IMG/VR virus record: IMGVR_UViG_3300009183_006007
Coordinates: 1-64,000 of that record
Strand: one strand, 5' to 3'
DNA length: 64,000 nucleotides
DNA from: a virus
In this document: piece by piece, positions 9,852 through 62,284 of the stretch
Numbering within the stretch: the first letter of the stretch is position 1
How the letters are laid out: the number at the start of each line of letters is the position of its first letter
Position numbers and translations under genes: made by a program
Notes under the pieces: model-generated
The model's input: only the letters and a program-made list of their open reading frames with translations
What the model was told of the DNA's origin: nothing
Database searches by the model: none

Positions 9852-10415
9852 ATGAGCATAACAATTGAAAAACAAACAACAAGTATGAAATGGTATATCG
9901 TTAGAGCACAATCTAATAGAGAGAGATCAGTATCTGAAAGAATTATGAAAGAAGCTGAAAAAGGAGACTTAATGAATAAAGTAGGTCAAGTAGTAGTTCC
10001 TATTGAAAAAAGTTTCTTTATGAAAAATGGTAAGAAAGTTGTTAGAGAAAAAGTAATGTACCCTGGGTATATCTTTGTAGAAACTAATGCAATTGGTGAA
10101 TTAAAATACTTCATCAAAGGATGTAACGGAGCTAGTGGTTTCTTAACCAACAGAGCTGGTGATATTCAAGCACTACAACAAATTGAAATCGACAGAATGT
10201 TGGGTATCCAAAAAGAAGCTGAAGAAAAAGAAATCGAAACAACTTTTGTTTATGATGAAGAAATCAAAATCATTGATGGACCATTTAATGGATTCGTTGG
10301 AACAATTGAAGAAATTAAAGAAAAAGAACAAAAAGTTAAAGTTGGTGTCTTAGTCTTTGGAAGAAAAACACTTATGGAACTTAGCATCAATCAAATTGAT
10401 AAAAAGACAAACTAA
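9852..10415 (+). CDS. nusG: NusG-family transcription factor
   Basis: 187 residues. The NGN domain starts M-K-W-Y-I-V-R-A-Q-S-N-R-E near residue 12 and contains V-M-Y-P-G-Y-I-F-V near 71; a KOW domain follows (G-P-F-N-G-F-V-G-T-I-E-E-I near 139). Length and domain order match bacterial NusG. NusG binds RNA polymerase and adjusts elongation and termination, so a phage copy could direct host polymerase to phage genes or replace the host protein. An internal Met at residue 12 is an alternative start. Lies between replication and nucleotide genes. Confidence 0.85.
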   Translation: MSITIEKQTTSMKWYIVRAQSNRERSVSERIMKEAEKGDLMNKVGQVVVPIEKSFFMKNGKKVVREKVMYPGYIFVETNAIGELKYFIKGCNGASGFLTNRAGDIQALQQIEIDRMLGIQKEAEEKEIETTFVYDEEIKIIDGPFNGFVGTIEEIKEKEQKVKVGVLVFGRKTLMELSINQIDKKTN

Positions 10416-10417
10416 AA

Positions 10418-10606
10418 TTGGATAACAAGGATATATATAAGAAGATATTAGAAGCTTCTAATATCATTGCTCAATCAAGTAGAAGGTCTTCAGCTAATTA
10501 TATGGTAACATCACCTGATGTTGCTGATATGATACAAGATATTTATAATCAAAAAAAGTCTCGTTGGAGAAAAGAAAAGATTAAAAAACTATTTCCTGAT
10601 GAGTAA
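10418..10606 (+). CDS. Mini-protein resembling a segment of the T4-like major capsid protein
   Basis: 62 residues beginning at TTG, 2 bp after the nusG stop; an internal ATG would give only 35 residues. The core I-I-A-Q-S-S-R-R-S-S-A-N-Y-M-V-T-S-P-D-V resembles the gp23 segment I-A-x-x-T-x-R-G-x-G-N-F-I-I-A-S-x-N-V as I recall it. The protein ends in a basic tail, R-K-E-K-I-K-K-L-F-P-D-E, shared with the next gene. Possibly a regulatory mimic of the capsid protein or a relic. Function unknown. Confidence 0.55.
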   Translation: MDNKDIYKKILEASNIIAQSSRRSSANYMVTSPDVADMIQDIYNQKKSRWRKEKIKKLFPDE

Positions 10607-10751
10607 GATAATTCTTAAGGGTGTTTTACAAACATTTGATAACAAACACAATGGTAGAATCTATTCAGAAGAAATCTTTACAAAGGCATATAAAGAGAGT
10701 GTTAGAAAACTTATAAGAAAGAAGAAAATTAGAAAATTATTCGATGAGTAA
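10599..10751 (+). CDS. Mini-protein resembling the start of the gp21 prohead protease
   Basis: A 50-residue gene that overlaps both neighbours by 8 bp and has an ATG start. L-K-G-V-L-Q-T-F-D-N-K-H-N-G-R-I-Y-S resembles the early part of gp21-type proteases (G-x-x-x-A-x-x-x-N-x-N-G-R-x-Y-P). It is far too short to hold the protease domain. It ends R-K-K-K-I-R-K-L-F-D-E, almost the same tail as the preceding mini-protein, so the two look like one designed family. Confidence 0.5.
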   Translation: MSKIILKGVLQTFDNKHNGRIYSEEIFTKAYKESVRKLIRKKKIRKLFDE

Positions 10752-11367
10752 ATATTTAGAAGGTATAACAAAAGATATGATTGAATCACAAGGTTATCTT
10801 TATGATGATATGAGTCCTATGGTTATTGACATGGAAGTGATTGATAATTCAGATAAAAATGCTACAAGAATGATAATCAAAGATAAATCTGGTAAAGAAA
10901 AATCAATTGATGGTGAAGATAACATTATAAGTTTTATAGATGAAATTAAATCAAGATACAAACAACTAAAATATGATAAAACTTATTTGAATATGGCTAC
11001 AGAGTGGGCTAAACTCTCACATTGTAGTAGAAAACAAGTAGGTGCTTTAATAGTTAAGAATGGTATGATTATATCTGATGGATATAATGGAACACCAACT
11101 GGATTTGATAACTCTTGTGAGAACGGAGATGGTGATACTAATTGGTATGTTATTCACGGAGAAGCCAATGCTATTCTGAAATGTGCTAAACACGGGCATT
11201 CTTGTGAGGGTGGTACTTTATACCAAACACATTCGCCTTGTAGAGATTGTTCTAAACTTATCTTACAATCAGGAATAAAAAGATTAGTATATAAAGAAGA
11301 TTACAAAGATACTTCAGGATTAGATTTTCTAAGAGAGGCTAAAATTGAAATAGTAAAATATGGATAA
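10744..11367 (+). CDS. cd: dCMP deaminase
   Basis: Zinc-dependent deaminase converting dCMP to dUMP, feeding dTTP synthesis. Zinc and catalytic motifs: H-G-E-A-N (H138, E140) and P-C-R-D-C (C166, C169). The N-terminal 75 residues are an extension ahead of the usual deaminase start (Y-L-N-M-A-T-E-W-A), longer than in most phage enzymes. The start overlaps the preceding mini-gene. The next gene overlaps its stop by 8 bp. Confidence 0.9.
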   Translation: MSKYLEGITKDMIESQGYLYDDMSPMVIDMEVIDNSDKNATRMIIKDKSGKEKSIDGEDNIISFIDEIKSRYKQLKYDKTYLNMATEWAKLSHCSRKQVGALIVKNGMIISDGYNGTPTGFDNSCENGDGDTNWYVIHGEANAILKCAKHGHSCEGGTLYQTHSPCRDCSKLILQSGIKRLVYKEDYKDTSGLDFLREAKIEIVKYG

Positions 11368-44475: not shown

Positions 44476-45074
44476 TGAGATTAAGTAGTCAGGGTAGTCA
44501 GTTCGTTTTTAATCTTCCAAGTGATTTTCTCAAACCAGAGGTACTTGCAACATATACTCCAATTTTAGAAAAGAATTGGGTTCAATATGAGAATGTTATA
44601 GATTATATTAATTCGACAATTAAGTCGGTTAATTTCCCAGGTATCTCATTTGATATGCCTAAACAAACATTAATCAGAGGTAAGGAAAGACAATACAAAC
44701 CAGCAAAGAATGTTCAGGATATCACAACTACACACGATTTAACAATTACTTTTAGATCAGTAGATTCTGATTTAAATTATTGGTTAGTTTTTGATATTAT
44801 TAATAAACATTATTTAGATGTTGAAAACTCATTTGTATTTCCATTTACAATTACTTGTGTTGATATACATAGAGATGGTATTTATGTTATTAGATTTTAT
44901 GAAATTATATTAAAATCATTATCTGAGAATAACTTTAATTACTCTCAACAAAAGGTGAGCTCTAAAGAATTCACAATGACATTTCATTTTAACTTCTATG
45001 ATATTGAATTCTTACTTAATAGAAGTAAGATATTGGAATTGGGCACATTACCAATAATTATTCAGAAGCTCTAA
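44475..45074 (+). CDS. Tail-tube-like structural protein, 199 aa
   Basis: Shows V-N-F-P-G-I-S-F-D near residue 56 and D-L-T-I-T-F-R near 90, a pattern like the tube fold of T4 gp19 and gp54 (F-P-G near the start, then a strand with T-x-T-F). Could be a tube, tube initiator or baseplate protein. Overlaps the upstream virion gene by one base; ends over the converging mini-gene at 45058. Confidence 0.5.
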   Translation: MRLSSQGSQFVFNLPSDFLKPEVLATYTPILEKNWVQYENVIDYINSTIKSVNFPGISFDMPKQTLIRGKERQYKPAKNVQDITTTHDLTITFRSVDSDLNYWLVFDIINKHYLDVENSFVFPFTITCVDIHRDGIYVIRFYEIILKSLSENNFNYSQQKVSSKEFTMTFHFNFYDIEFLLNRSKILELGTLPIIIQKL

Positions 45075-45282
45075 ATATTTTATTAATAGAGTTCTTTCTT
45101 CTTTTATTTCTTGATTCTAATCCTAAGCTTTTTAGAATTTCCATGTCAATAGATTTTGATAATTCATCTGATAACATTTTACTCAGTTCATCAACAACAT
45201 CAAGTCCATAATGTTCACTTAATTTATCTGCTTCCGAATTTGAGTAGATTTCACCACCGGATCCTGTTTTAATTTGATTCAT
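45058..45282 (-). CDS. Mini-protein resembling another segment of the major capsid protein
   Basis: 74 residues, starting inside the end of the mutase gene. Residues 18-50 (A-D-K-L-S-E-H-Y-G-L-D-V-V-D-E-L then S-K-M-L ... I-D-M-E-I-L) resemble T4 gp23 A-Q-D-L-R-A-V-H-G-M-D-A-D-A-E-L ... I-N-R-E-V as I recall it, with about 10 identities in 33 positions. It ends with a basic tail K-R-R-K-N-S-I-N-K-I-F-R-A-S-E, like the mini-proteins at 10418 and 10599. Confidence 0.5.
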   Translation of the reverse strand: MNQIKTGSGGEIYSNSEADKLSEHYGLDVVDELSKMLSDELSKSIDMEILKSLGLESRNKRRKNSINKIFRASE

Positions 45283-48443: not shown

Positions 48444-49231
48444 ATTTTTATCCAGTTACTTGGTAATATATCACTTTCATTTAGATTAGTTTGAAATCCA
48501 AACCAATTATTAGGAGCAATAACCTTTTTATTTGGATTCGAGTTTAACCAAGCACCCCACCAACTAAATGATGAGTTTGCTATTATATTATTCTTACACA
48601 TTGACATAAGCCAAAGGTCTTCAACATCATCAAATCCTTCCATAAATATCATATTATTAAATGTTAGATTGTCTTTACACCATTGAATATCATCTGAGAA
48701 TACAAATATGTAATCATACTCTCCAATAATATCTAATGCTTTTTTATAATACTCAATGGATTGAACTGGATGATACCCATTTGATGTTACATAGTCTGTT
48801 CTTCTAACATGAAGTGAAACTACATTTGTATCTATAAAGGGTGTTAGGTTTAACTTTTTTAATATCTCATCAGAAGGAGATAAATCTTTTCTTATCAAAT
48901 CAGATGATTCTAAAAAGTATTTTTCAGATTGCCAATATCCATCTAAGTAATAATTATAATTATTATCATAACTCAACTCATTAAATTTAAAATTATCACT
49001 TAGTTTTTGAAAGTTTTTGCCATTTGATAAATTAGATGGATTGAATGCTGATGTATTAATATTAGGAAACTTGGATAATGAATAGTTTCTTTTTGTAGTT
49101 CCTGGTATATGTTGATTATAAAAACTCAAATCAATGTATAATTCAACATTATATTTATTTGATAGATTTCTACCATAAGCCCATTGGAATAACTGGTTTG
49201 CTAATCCACCTTGTAATTTAGTTATTATCAT
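48440..49231 (-). CDS. Alpha-1,2-fucosyltransferase (GT11)
   Basis: 263 residues. N-terminal K-L-Q-G-G-L-A-N-Q-L-F-Q and motif I H-V-R-R-T-D-Y (141-147) are signatures of GT11; F-S-D-D near 177 and S-S-F-S-W-W-G-A-W near 222 complete the pattern. Transfers fucose from GDP-fucose to the 2-position of galactose, as in H-antigen synthesis. GDP-fucose can be made by the fused enzyme at 58123. Confidence 0.9.
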   Translation of the reverse strand: MIITKLQGGLANQLFQWAYGRNLSNKYNVELYIDLSFYNQHIPGTTKRNYSLSKFPNINTSAFNPSNLSNGKNFQKLSDNFKFNELSYDNNYNYYLDGYWQSEKYFLESSDLIRKDLSPSDEILKKLNLTPFIDTNVVSLHVRRTDYVTSNGYHPVQSIEYYKKALDIIGEYDYIFVFSDDIQWCKDNLTFNNMIFMEGFDDVEDLWLMSMCKNNIIANSSFSWWGAWLNSNPNKKVIAPNNWFGFQTNLNESDILPSNWIKI

Positions 49232-60154: not shown

Positions 60155-62284
60155 TTACTCAGAATCTTTCTTTTTTCTTGTAGCTTTCTTCTTTGGTGGA
60201 GAAGTAATTACAACAAACATATTATCATCTTCTTTGTTATAATCCAATAATAATTTAGAATTTTTCTCAGGATTCTGTTGAATGATTTCCTCTGTTAGAA
60301 CATCTTCAACATATTTCTGAATAGCTCTCTTCAAAGGTCTTGCTCCATATTCTGGATCAAACCCTTGAGTAGCGATATATTCAGATGCTCCTTCTGTGAT
60401 TTCTAATTCAAATTCCATCTTTTTAACTCTTTCTACCAAGCCACCCAACTCAATATCAATGATTTTGTTGATATCTTCTTTGTTTAAAGAGTTAAACATT
60501 ACAACATCATCAATACGATTTAAGAACTCAGGTGCAAATTTCTTCTTCAATTCTTTTTCAATTACTGAATTAGTTTCTTCGGTTGATTTGCTTTCTTTAT
60601 TCTTAGTAGAGAATCCAACACCTGTTCCGAATTCTTTCAACTGACGTGAACCAGTATTAGAAGTCATAATGATAATTGTATTCTTAAAGTTTACTTTTCT
60701 ACCAAGTGAATCTGTTAACTGACCATCATCAAGTACTTGAAGTAACAAGTTGAATACTTCTGGATGAGCTTTCTCAATCTCATCTAAAAGAATTACTGAG
60801 TAAGGTTTACGTCTAACTTTTTCAGTTAACTGACCACCTTCATCGTGTCCAACATATCCTGGAGGAGCTCCAATCAAACGAGATACTGCGAATTTCTCCA
60901 TATATTCAGACATATCAATTCTAATTAAAGAATCTTCTGACTCGAATAAGTATCTAGCAAGAATCTTAGCCAATTGAGTTTTACCAACTCCTGTAGGTCC
61001 CAAGAACATAAATGAACCAATTGGTTTACTTGGATCTTTCAAACCAACACGACCTCTTTGAATAGCTTTTACAATCTTCTTAACAGCTTCATCTTGACCA
61101 ATAACTTTACCAATGATACTTTCTTGCATTTTGGCTAATTTACTAGTTTCGTTTAGAGATACTTTTTGAAGAGGAATGCCAGTCATCATCGAAACAACTT
61201 CAGCAACATTATCTTCTGTAACCGTTTGTTTGTTGTTAGAACATTCTTCTTCCCATTTCTTTCTCTCTTTTTCCAAAGACTCGTTAAGTTGTCTTTCAAC
61301 GTCTCTTAACTTAGCAGCTTCTTCATATTTCTGAGAACGAATAACTCCATTTTTCTTTTCTTTAATCTCAACTATCTTATTTTCAATATCAGTGATTTCT
61401 TTCGGAACAACGATATTAGAAATGTGAACACGAGATCCAGCTTCGTCTAAAGCATCAATAGCCTTGTCTGGTAAGAATCTATCAGCAACATATCTGTCAG
61501 TTAAGTCAACACAAGCCTTGATAGCTTCTTCTGTGTAAATCACATTATGGTGTGATTCATACTTATCTTTAATGTTGTTGATAATTTGGAATGTTTCATC
61601 TGGTGATGCAGGTTCAACAATAACTTTTTGAAAACGTCTTTCCAAAGCTCCATCCTTTTCAATATGCTTACGATATTCATCTAAAGTAGTAGCACCAATG
61701 ATTTGGATTTCTCCACGAGCTAAAGCCGGTTTGAACATATTAGAAGCATCTAAAGATCCTGAAGCACCACCTGCACCGATAATTGTATGAATTTCATCGA
61801 TGAAAAGTATCACATCTGGTTCTTTTTCAAGTTCAGCCATTAAAGCTTTAATTCTTTCTTCAAATTGACCACGATATTTAGTTCCAGCAACCATAGAAGC
61901 CAAATCCAACATAACGATTCTTTTATTAAAAAGAATTCTACTAACTTTTCTTTGAATGATTCTCAATGCTAATCCTTCAGCGATTGAAGATTTACCAACA
62001 CCAGGTTCACCAATTAAAATAGGGTTATTCTTTTTTCTACGAGATAGAATTTGAGATACTCTTTCGATTTCTTTTTCTCTACCTACGATAGGGTCAAGAC
62101 GACCTTCTTCCCCCATTTTGGTTAAGTCTCGACTATAAGTGTCTAAAACCGGAGTTTTAGATTTAGAATCAGACTTTTTAGAAGAACCAAAAGATGAATC
62201 ATCTTCATCATCTTCAATAGCGGATCTAATATCAGGTATTGTGTAATTTCCCTCTTCAATTTTTTTATTATCCATAGTATTCAT
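60155..62284 (-). CDS. clpC: ClpC-like AAA+ ATPase lacking the N-terminal Clp domain
   Basis: 709 residues. A disordered, charged N-terminus of about 50 residues replaces the usual 150-residue Clp-N repeat domain. Then AAA domain 1 (G-E-P-G-V-G-K-S near 95, D-E-I-H near 165), a middle UVR-type helix (Y-E-E-A-A-K-L-R near 348), and AAA domain 2 (G-P-T-G-V-G-K-T near 435, L-L-D-E-I-E-K near 508), as in ClpC. An unfoldase that may partner host ClpP or act alone. Loss of the N domain may change adaptor and substrate choice. Confidence 0.9.

Follow-up and report, generated by a model that had tools for sequence, protein, structure and literature searches.

Short terminal motifs common to many unrelated proteins are known from encapsulin cargo-loading peptides, the peroxisomal targeting signal PTS1 and microcompartment encapsulation peptides. 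Phage T4 makes two small proteins, Srd and Srh, each of which looks like a portion of a larger protein and is annotated as a postulated decoy. The locus described here is like Srd and Srh in that its small products resemble pieces of larger proteins; however, Srd and Srh mimic host sigma factors instead of the phage's own head proteins, carry no shared C-terminal tag and are not arranged in a cassette. The C-terminal tag found here is unrelated in sequence to the encapsulin, PTS1 and microcompartment motifs and stands on about 1 in 6-9 proteins of the phage. A search of the open-access literature turned up neither a phage with one C-terminal motif, varying by clade, on 11-16% of its otherwise unrelated proteins, nor a conserved cassette miniaturising three head proteins.

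The stretch of DNA that was analysed (the window) is 64 kb out of a 75-kb virus record. Among the phages of the collection it is most closely related to the megaphages LR756502 (642 kb, W01) and LR745206 (635 kb, W02). Further comparisons were made with LR756504 (636 kb, W03), LR756501 (735 kb, W04) and LR756500 (462 kb, W05), and with the IMG/VR records G001 (29 kb) and G002 (385 kb). Five genomes longer than 634 kb, all of the Mahaphage clade and with predicted hosts in Bacteroidetes, were reported in a survey of huge phages (Al-Shayeb et al. 2020, PMC7162821), and in our reading LR756502 and LR745206 are among them. Because the gp23 and gp21 of the window's own phage, like its gp20, are absent from the 75-kb contig, those of the relatives were used for comparison.

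The cassette between the NusG and dCMP deaminase genes

Two small genes lie on the plus strand between the gene for a NusG-like transcription antiterminator (9852..10415, +; Pfam NusG, 3.2e-16), the constant upstream neighbour in the cassette loci examined, and that for a dCMP deaminase (10744..11367, +; Pfam dCMP_cyt_deam_1, 3.7e-23), the constant downstream neighbour. The first, mini-gp23 (mini62, 10418..10606, +), encodes 62 aa that comprise a segment of about 40 residues of the major capsid protein and a C-terminal tag (RKEKIKKLFPDE, 10568..10603, +; located with the tail PWM), and its TTG start is supported by the relative in LR756502, where an ATG stands at the equivalent 'MDN'. The second, mini-gp21 (mini50, 10599..10751, +; ATG start), encodes 50 aa that comprise an N-terminal ILxGVLQ...NGRIY segment of the prohead protease and a C-terminal tag (RKKKIRKLFDE, 10716..10748, +; tail PWM). 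Each gene overlaps the gene downstream by 8 bases, mini-gp21 being overlapped on both sides, and because the overlap GATGAGTAA contains the ATG of the next gene, it accounts for the last D-E of the miniatures, although only for these two residues and not for the rest of the tail. The two open reading frames of the preliminary description are present as it reported them, and they are well supported as genuine small genes in a conserved, translationally overlapping cassette.

The product of mini-gp23 matched the Pfam profile PF07068 (Gp23) with 26.3 bits (cutoff, 24.4; E 6.4e-6) at profile positions 222-260 and the PHROG major head protein with 3e-5, and it was recovered with E 1.1e-7 from all six-frame ORFs of four genomes by an HMM built from the capsid proteins of nine phages. 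In a comparison of family profiles by hhalign, mini-gp23 matched the megaphage capsid profile with a probability of 96.8 (P 2.9e-10), the next of the 93 core families reaching 1.5, so that the resemblance to a gp23 segment proposed earlier lies beyond chance. The family profile also matched residues 356-388 of T4 gp23 in the PDB, a match that is weak alone (E 0.85). The 39 aligned positions out of 376 in the Gp23 profile, however, fall short of a full-length HK97-fold subunit, and with only about 40 of the 521 capsid residues of T4 the product cannot form a capsid subunit. AlphaFold models of the two miniatures were modest (pLDDT 74 and 65, pTM about 0.3) and consisted of two helices, the tag ending the second; mini-gp23 was predicted to be a two-helix hairpin (pTM 0.31) in which helix 33-58 contains the tag at its end. 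Residues R51, K54 and I55 of mini-gp23 were invariant across 10 relatives.

As a single sequence, mini-gp21 resembled gp21 more weakly (protease HMM, E 0.006), and no direct match to the Pfam gp21 profile was obtained. The family profile, by contrast, matched the prohead protease clearly (hhalign probability 94.7, P 5.9e-8; next of the 93 core families, 1.8), and the conserved residues of the family follow the N-terminus of that protein, ILxGxxQxF...NGRIY. Homology to Peptidase_S77 (PF03420), the family of T4 gp21, is reached through this family profile and the megaphage prohead proteases, which themselves match PF03420 in five phages, in one of them above the cutoff. Mini-gp21 keeps the N-terminal ILxGVLQ...NGRIY of the megaphage protease but aligns only to positions of about 22-60 in the 240-residue N-domain profile, so that nearly the whole protease domain of T4 gp21 is missing. 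No relatives of mini-gp21 were found among bacterial and archaeal genome contigs. An identity as an EF-hand protein was rejected, since the score for Pfam EF-hand_7 (23.1 bits) is below the cutoff of 30 and the relatives insert a loop residue or lose the loop, yet keep the gp21-like residues.

In 13 other virus records, namely W01, G001 and 11 other IMG/VR records including G002 (L190 and three others were read; two pairs are near-identical), a relative of mini-gp23 with an intact frame occupies the corresponding locus between NusG and dCMP deaminase. Three more matches of the same scan (L196-L198) fall inside a larger ORF (565 aa in L196 and L197) and evidently represent the full-length capsid protein of other phages. 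Mini-gp21 occurs at the cassette place in G001, G002 and four other records, and elsewhere in W02. A third miniature gene, mini-gp20, was detected in at least six records and in W02 (for example 'PYFSIDWIIKMLGLERNEV' plus tag); its family profile matched the portal protein gp20, near the portal C-terminus, with a probability of 75.6 (P 2.4e-5; next of the 93 core families, 1.9), and this homology is the weakest of the three. Each of the three families matches a single head protein and none other of the 93 core families. The comparisons show each miniature to be, as judged from sequence similarity, a segment of a head protein (gp23 and gp21, and gp20 in relatives) joined to the C-terminal tag of the clade. 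The preliminary description had treated the two genes as a related pair; the pair is real, but the cassette often has a third member, the portal piece, and the tail is no bond between these two genes.

The miniatures evolve fast. Leaving aside the most diverged pairs, those with W01, dN/dS for mini-gp23 was 0.07-0.84. It was 0.23-0.61 for mini-gp21, and 0.3-0.8 for mini-gp20 plus one noisy value of 1.5; some pairs of the short mini-gp20 are near or above 1. Overall, the values show a tendency towards purifying selection. It is highly improbable that the miniatures are debris of gene birth, that is, partial duplications of head genes that acquired the common tail and drift without function. The fast evolution, the origin of fragments from many capsid segments and the variable membership of the cassette would agree with such an origin, but order and place are conserved in 14 records, the frames are intact, dN/dS is mostly below 1, and three different head proteins are represented in one cassette. 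The earlier suggestion of fused relics is likewise disfavoured because position is conserved, frames are maintained and dN/dS is mostly below 1.

Around the cassette, a gene named HNH by eye often lies between NusG and the miniatures. The dCMP deaminase of the window has an N-terminal extension of about 70 aa (10744-10950) that is absent from relatives; a fused third miniature in this extension was rejected, as no similarity to the portal or other core proteins was found. In LR745206, near 605.5 kb, a 48-aa ORF (L010, 1650-1796) stands in tandem with the mini-gp21 relative and resembles by eye a piece of a peptidoglycan-binding repeat followed by a basic tail.

The C-terminal tag in the megaphage proteomes

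The two miniatures had been reported to share the tail K-I-[KR]-K-L-F-x-D-E. This similarity is real, but it extends far beyond the pair: K-I-[KR]-K-L-F is one form of a clade-specific, proteome-wide tag with the pattern R-x-x-[KR]-[IL]-x-x-[IL]. The search for the tail motif in related genomes, which had been proposed as a check, found it at the end of 11-16% of the proteins of these megaphages (gene counts and tag percentages are approximate because a simple home-made gene caller was used). In W01, W02, G001 and the window contig together, 312 of 1977 called proteins (16%) carry the tag, as against 0.3% of internal windows and about 15 proteins expected from shuffled C-termini, and in G002 it is carried by 49 of 438. 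The W03 genome uses the dialect R-K-x-[KRI]-I-[DEN]-x-L; it stands on at least 124 of the 867 proteins, the number that reach the motif score set for W01/W02, and is dense at the genome ends. The absence of the tag from W03, suggested by a 50-kb sample, was overturned, since the dialect is present across the whole genome. No tag-like enrichment of note was seen in 50-100 kb of Lak-B6, PTm1, PAU, MA9V-1, LR756500 and T4, samples in which a rare or regional tag could still occur.

Tagged proteins are short (median about 95-130 aa), fast-evolving and mostly accessory. Ortholog pairs tagged on both sides numbered 32 between W01 and W02 and 0 of 149 between W01 and W03. At the R, D, N and first I of the tag, synonymous codons are used at close to their average frequencies in the genome, a degree of bias appears at the K and last L/I positions, and 49 of 311 tagged genes have a convergent neighbour. 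Because of these near-average codons and convergent neighbours, translational coupling was rejected as the full origin of the tail; the same motif is selected at the protein level on many unrelated proteins. A 65-aa tagged ORF in W01 (482640-482837) resembles by eye a tail-fibre segment (PVEGDSYYDRKTNSVYTYSSGIW) followed by the tag.

Tag-bearing phages also encode components of a Clp system. In W01, W02 and W03, all three with the R..K[IL] tag, genes for ClpS (205052-205333 in W01, with equivalents in W02 and W03), for a ClpC-type unfoldase and for two to three ClpP are present, and the partial genome G002 has ClpS (48902-49108) and ClpC; ClpS and ClpP are missing from the phage with the DPYGEE motif described below, and ClpS and ClpC from W05. 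Through this co-occurrence, the ClpC-like double AAA+ unfoldase with a UVR motif encoded in the window (60155..62284, -; Pfam AAA_2, ClpB_D2-small, UVR) becomes a candidate partner of the tag, a role we infer. It is nevertheless very unlikely that the miniatures are proteolysis adaptors, with the tag docking on phage ClpC, ClpP or ClpS so that head proteins (or sensors) are delivered, or that the tag is a degron. The existence of tagged fragments of the ClpC UVR motif would fit such a role, but the co-occurrence comes from few and mutually related genomes, ClpS normally reads N-termini, no obvious N-terminal adaptor domain is found in the window's ClpC among the matches listed, and 11-16% of proteins as substrates or adaptors would be extreme.

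In W04 (735 kb), DPYGEExW replaces the R..K tag. The motif DPYGEE[DNE]W ends 42 proteins and occurs near the N-termini or in linkers of dozens more, and a scan of IMG/VR contigs for DPYGEExW gave 94 stretches. A handful of proteins per genome in W01-W04 open with an N-terminus like the capsid-targeting sequence (CTS) of T4 (e.g. MKYLKKYKIFEE). It is unlikely, on balance, that the tag is a capsid loading signal, comparable to encapsulin cargo peptides or the N-terminal CTS of T4, and that tagged accessory proteins and miniatures are packaged cargo inside the head that is injected along with the DNA. The tagged proteins do resemble the internal proteins of T4 in being small, accessory and fast-evolving, and about a dozen W04 proteins have DPYGEE immediately after a CTS-like N-terminus (MIKKFKIFE...). 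The miniatures, however, start with MDNKD and MSKII and have no N-terminal CTS-like motif; a CTS-like N-terminus and the R..K tag almost never coincide (0 proteins in W01 and 1 in W02, where only about 1-2 would be expected); and the W04 motif also occurs internally in a large protein that combines tRNA nucleotidyltransferase and deaminase domains and is not an obvious cargo.

We put at even chances a broader reading, in which a common receptor reads an address tag that these megaphages place at C-termini across the proteome and that differs by clade (R-x-x-[KR]-[IL]-x-x-[IL] in one lineage group); DPYGEExW would be a similar signal in another lineage. The tag would route a changing accessory repertoire, in which the conserved capsid, prohead protease and portal miniatures are included and would act in trans. 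Should the tag be an address, it would provide a handle on the destination and the reader of many uncharacterised accessory proteins of megaphages.

Head-protein fragments and the putative role of the miniatures

Small stand-alone ORFs matching pieces of head proteins were found 29 times at E <=1e-3 and 40 times at 0.01, and they cover different segments of the capsid protein, the prohead protease, its scaffold repeats and the portal. Among the 29, 14 (48%) are tagged, compared with 633 of 3263 other small proteins (19%), corresponding to an odds ratio of 3.9 (Fisher p=5e-4, with orthologs counted as independent). When fragment paralogs were counted for the 93 core proteins, the capsid protein had by far the most (12), followed by the protease-scaffold and one unidentified protein (4 each), and the portal had 3, level with one more core protein. 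Within the window, a further capsid-protein fragment from another gp23 segment (74 aa; 45058..45282, -) ends in the tag-like tail RRKNSINKIFRASE and matched Pfam Gp23 with E 4.5e-4 (profile 162-199, below the curated cutoff) and MCP HMMs with E 7.9e-4 to 8.9e-5. In W04, two adjacent tagged ORFs comprise a clear capsid piece (145891-146127, E 4e-9) and a weak candidate (145582-145887, E 0.09), and a tagged protease fragment was found with E 1e-28.

While the anatomy of the cassette is well supported, its function is inferred. Our first choice, held tentatively and at somewhat under even chances, is that the tagged miniatures imitate head-assembly proteins in trans and, most probably, act as decoys for the host sensors that respond to capsid, prohead protease and portal. 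The N-terminal part of a miniature would occupy the partner that normally contacts the corresponding surface of the parent, and the tag would dock the peptide on a shared phage factor; the partners would most probably be host immune sensors, to which the peptides may bind without activating them. Host sensors are favoured as partners because bacterial anti-phage sensors triggered by each of the three parents are documented: CapRel (PMC9712102) and Thoeris are activated by the capsid protein, Lit by a gp23 peptide and CBASS by the prohead protease (PMC11312562, PMC12409349), and the portal activates SpbK, which it binds via its clip domain, and is sensed by Avs4 (PMC12847820). A mimic or decoy role is also consistent with the correspondence of three families to three head proteins, the fixed locus, dN/dS mostly of 0.07-0.8 save in the most diverged comparisons, the enrichment of head fragments for the tag, and the presence in W04 of capsid and protease fragments with a different tag. 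Against decoys, the portal piece lies near the C-terminus and not in the clip domain bound by SpbK, and no single epitope is kept, because some of the tagged fragments, located elsewhere in the genomes, correspond to different segments of the capsid protein. As decoys, the miniatures would represent a new counter-defence strategy against pattern-recognition sensors of capsid, protease and portal.

A second branch of the mechanism, possible though on the doubtful side, is that the peptides modulate head assembly, binding the full-length parents of their own or a competing phage and delaying, tuning or poisoning the prohead. Assembly control fits nearly or equally well because the same three parents, the portal, the protease-scaffold and the capsid, are all early prohead components, and for several fragments the source is the capsid gene of the phage itself, as with W04_552412 and W03_472614, whose scores to their own MCP are far higher. 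A piece of 40 residues from an HK97 fold need not bind its parent, however; mini-gp23 is predicted, with low pTM, to be a helical hairpin, and in W01 the head genes are distant from the cassette (about 225 kb versus 502 kb). A competitor-specific origin of the fragments was rejected as a general rule, since several come from the phage's own capsid gene.

Small ORFs whose products match the part of the ClpC-like unfoldase of the same phage that bears the UVR motif were observed in W01 (320919-321134), W02 (296085-296384) and G002 (194233-194529), those of W01 and W02 being tagged.
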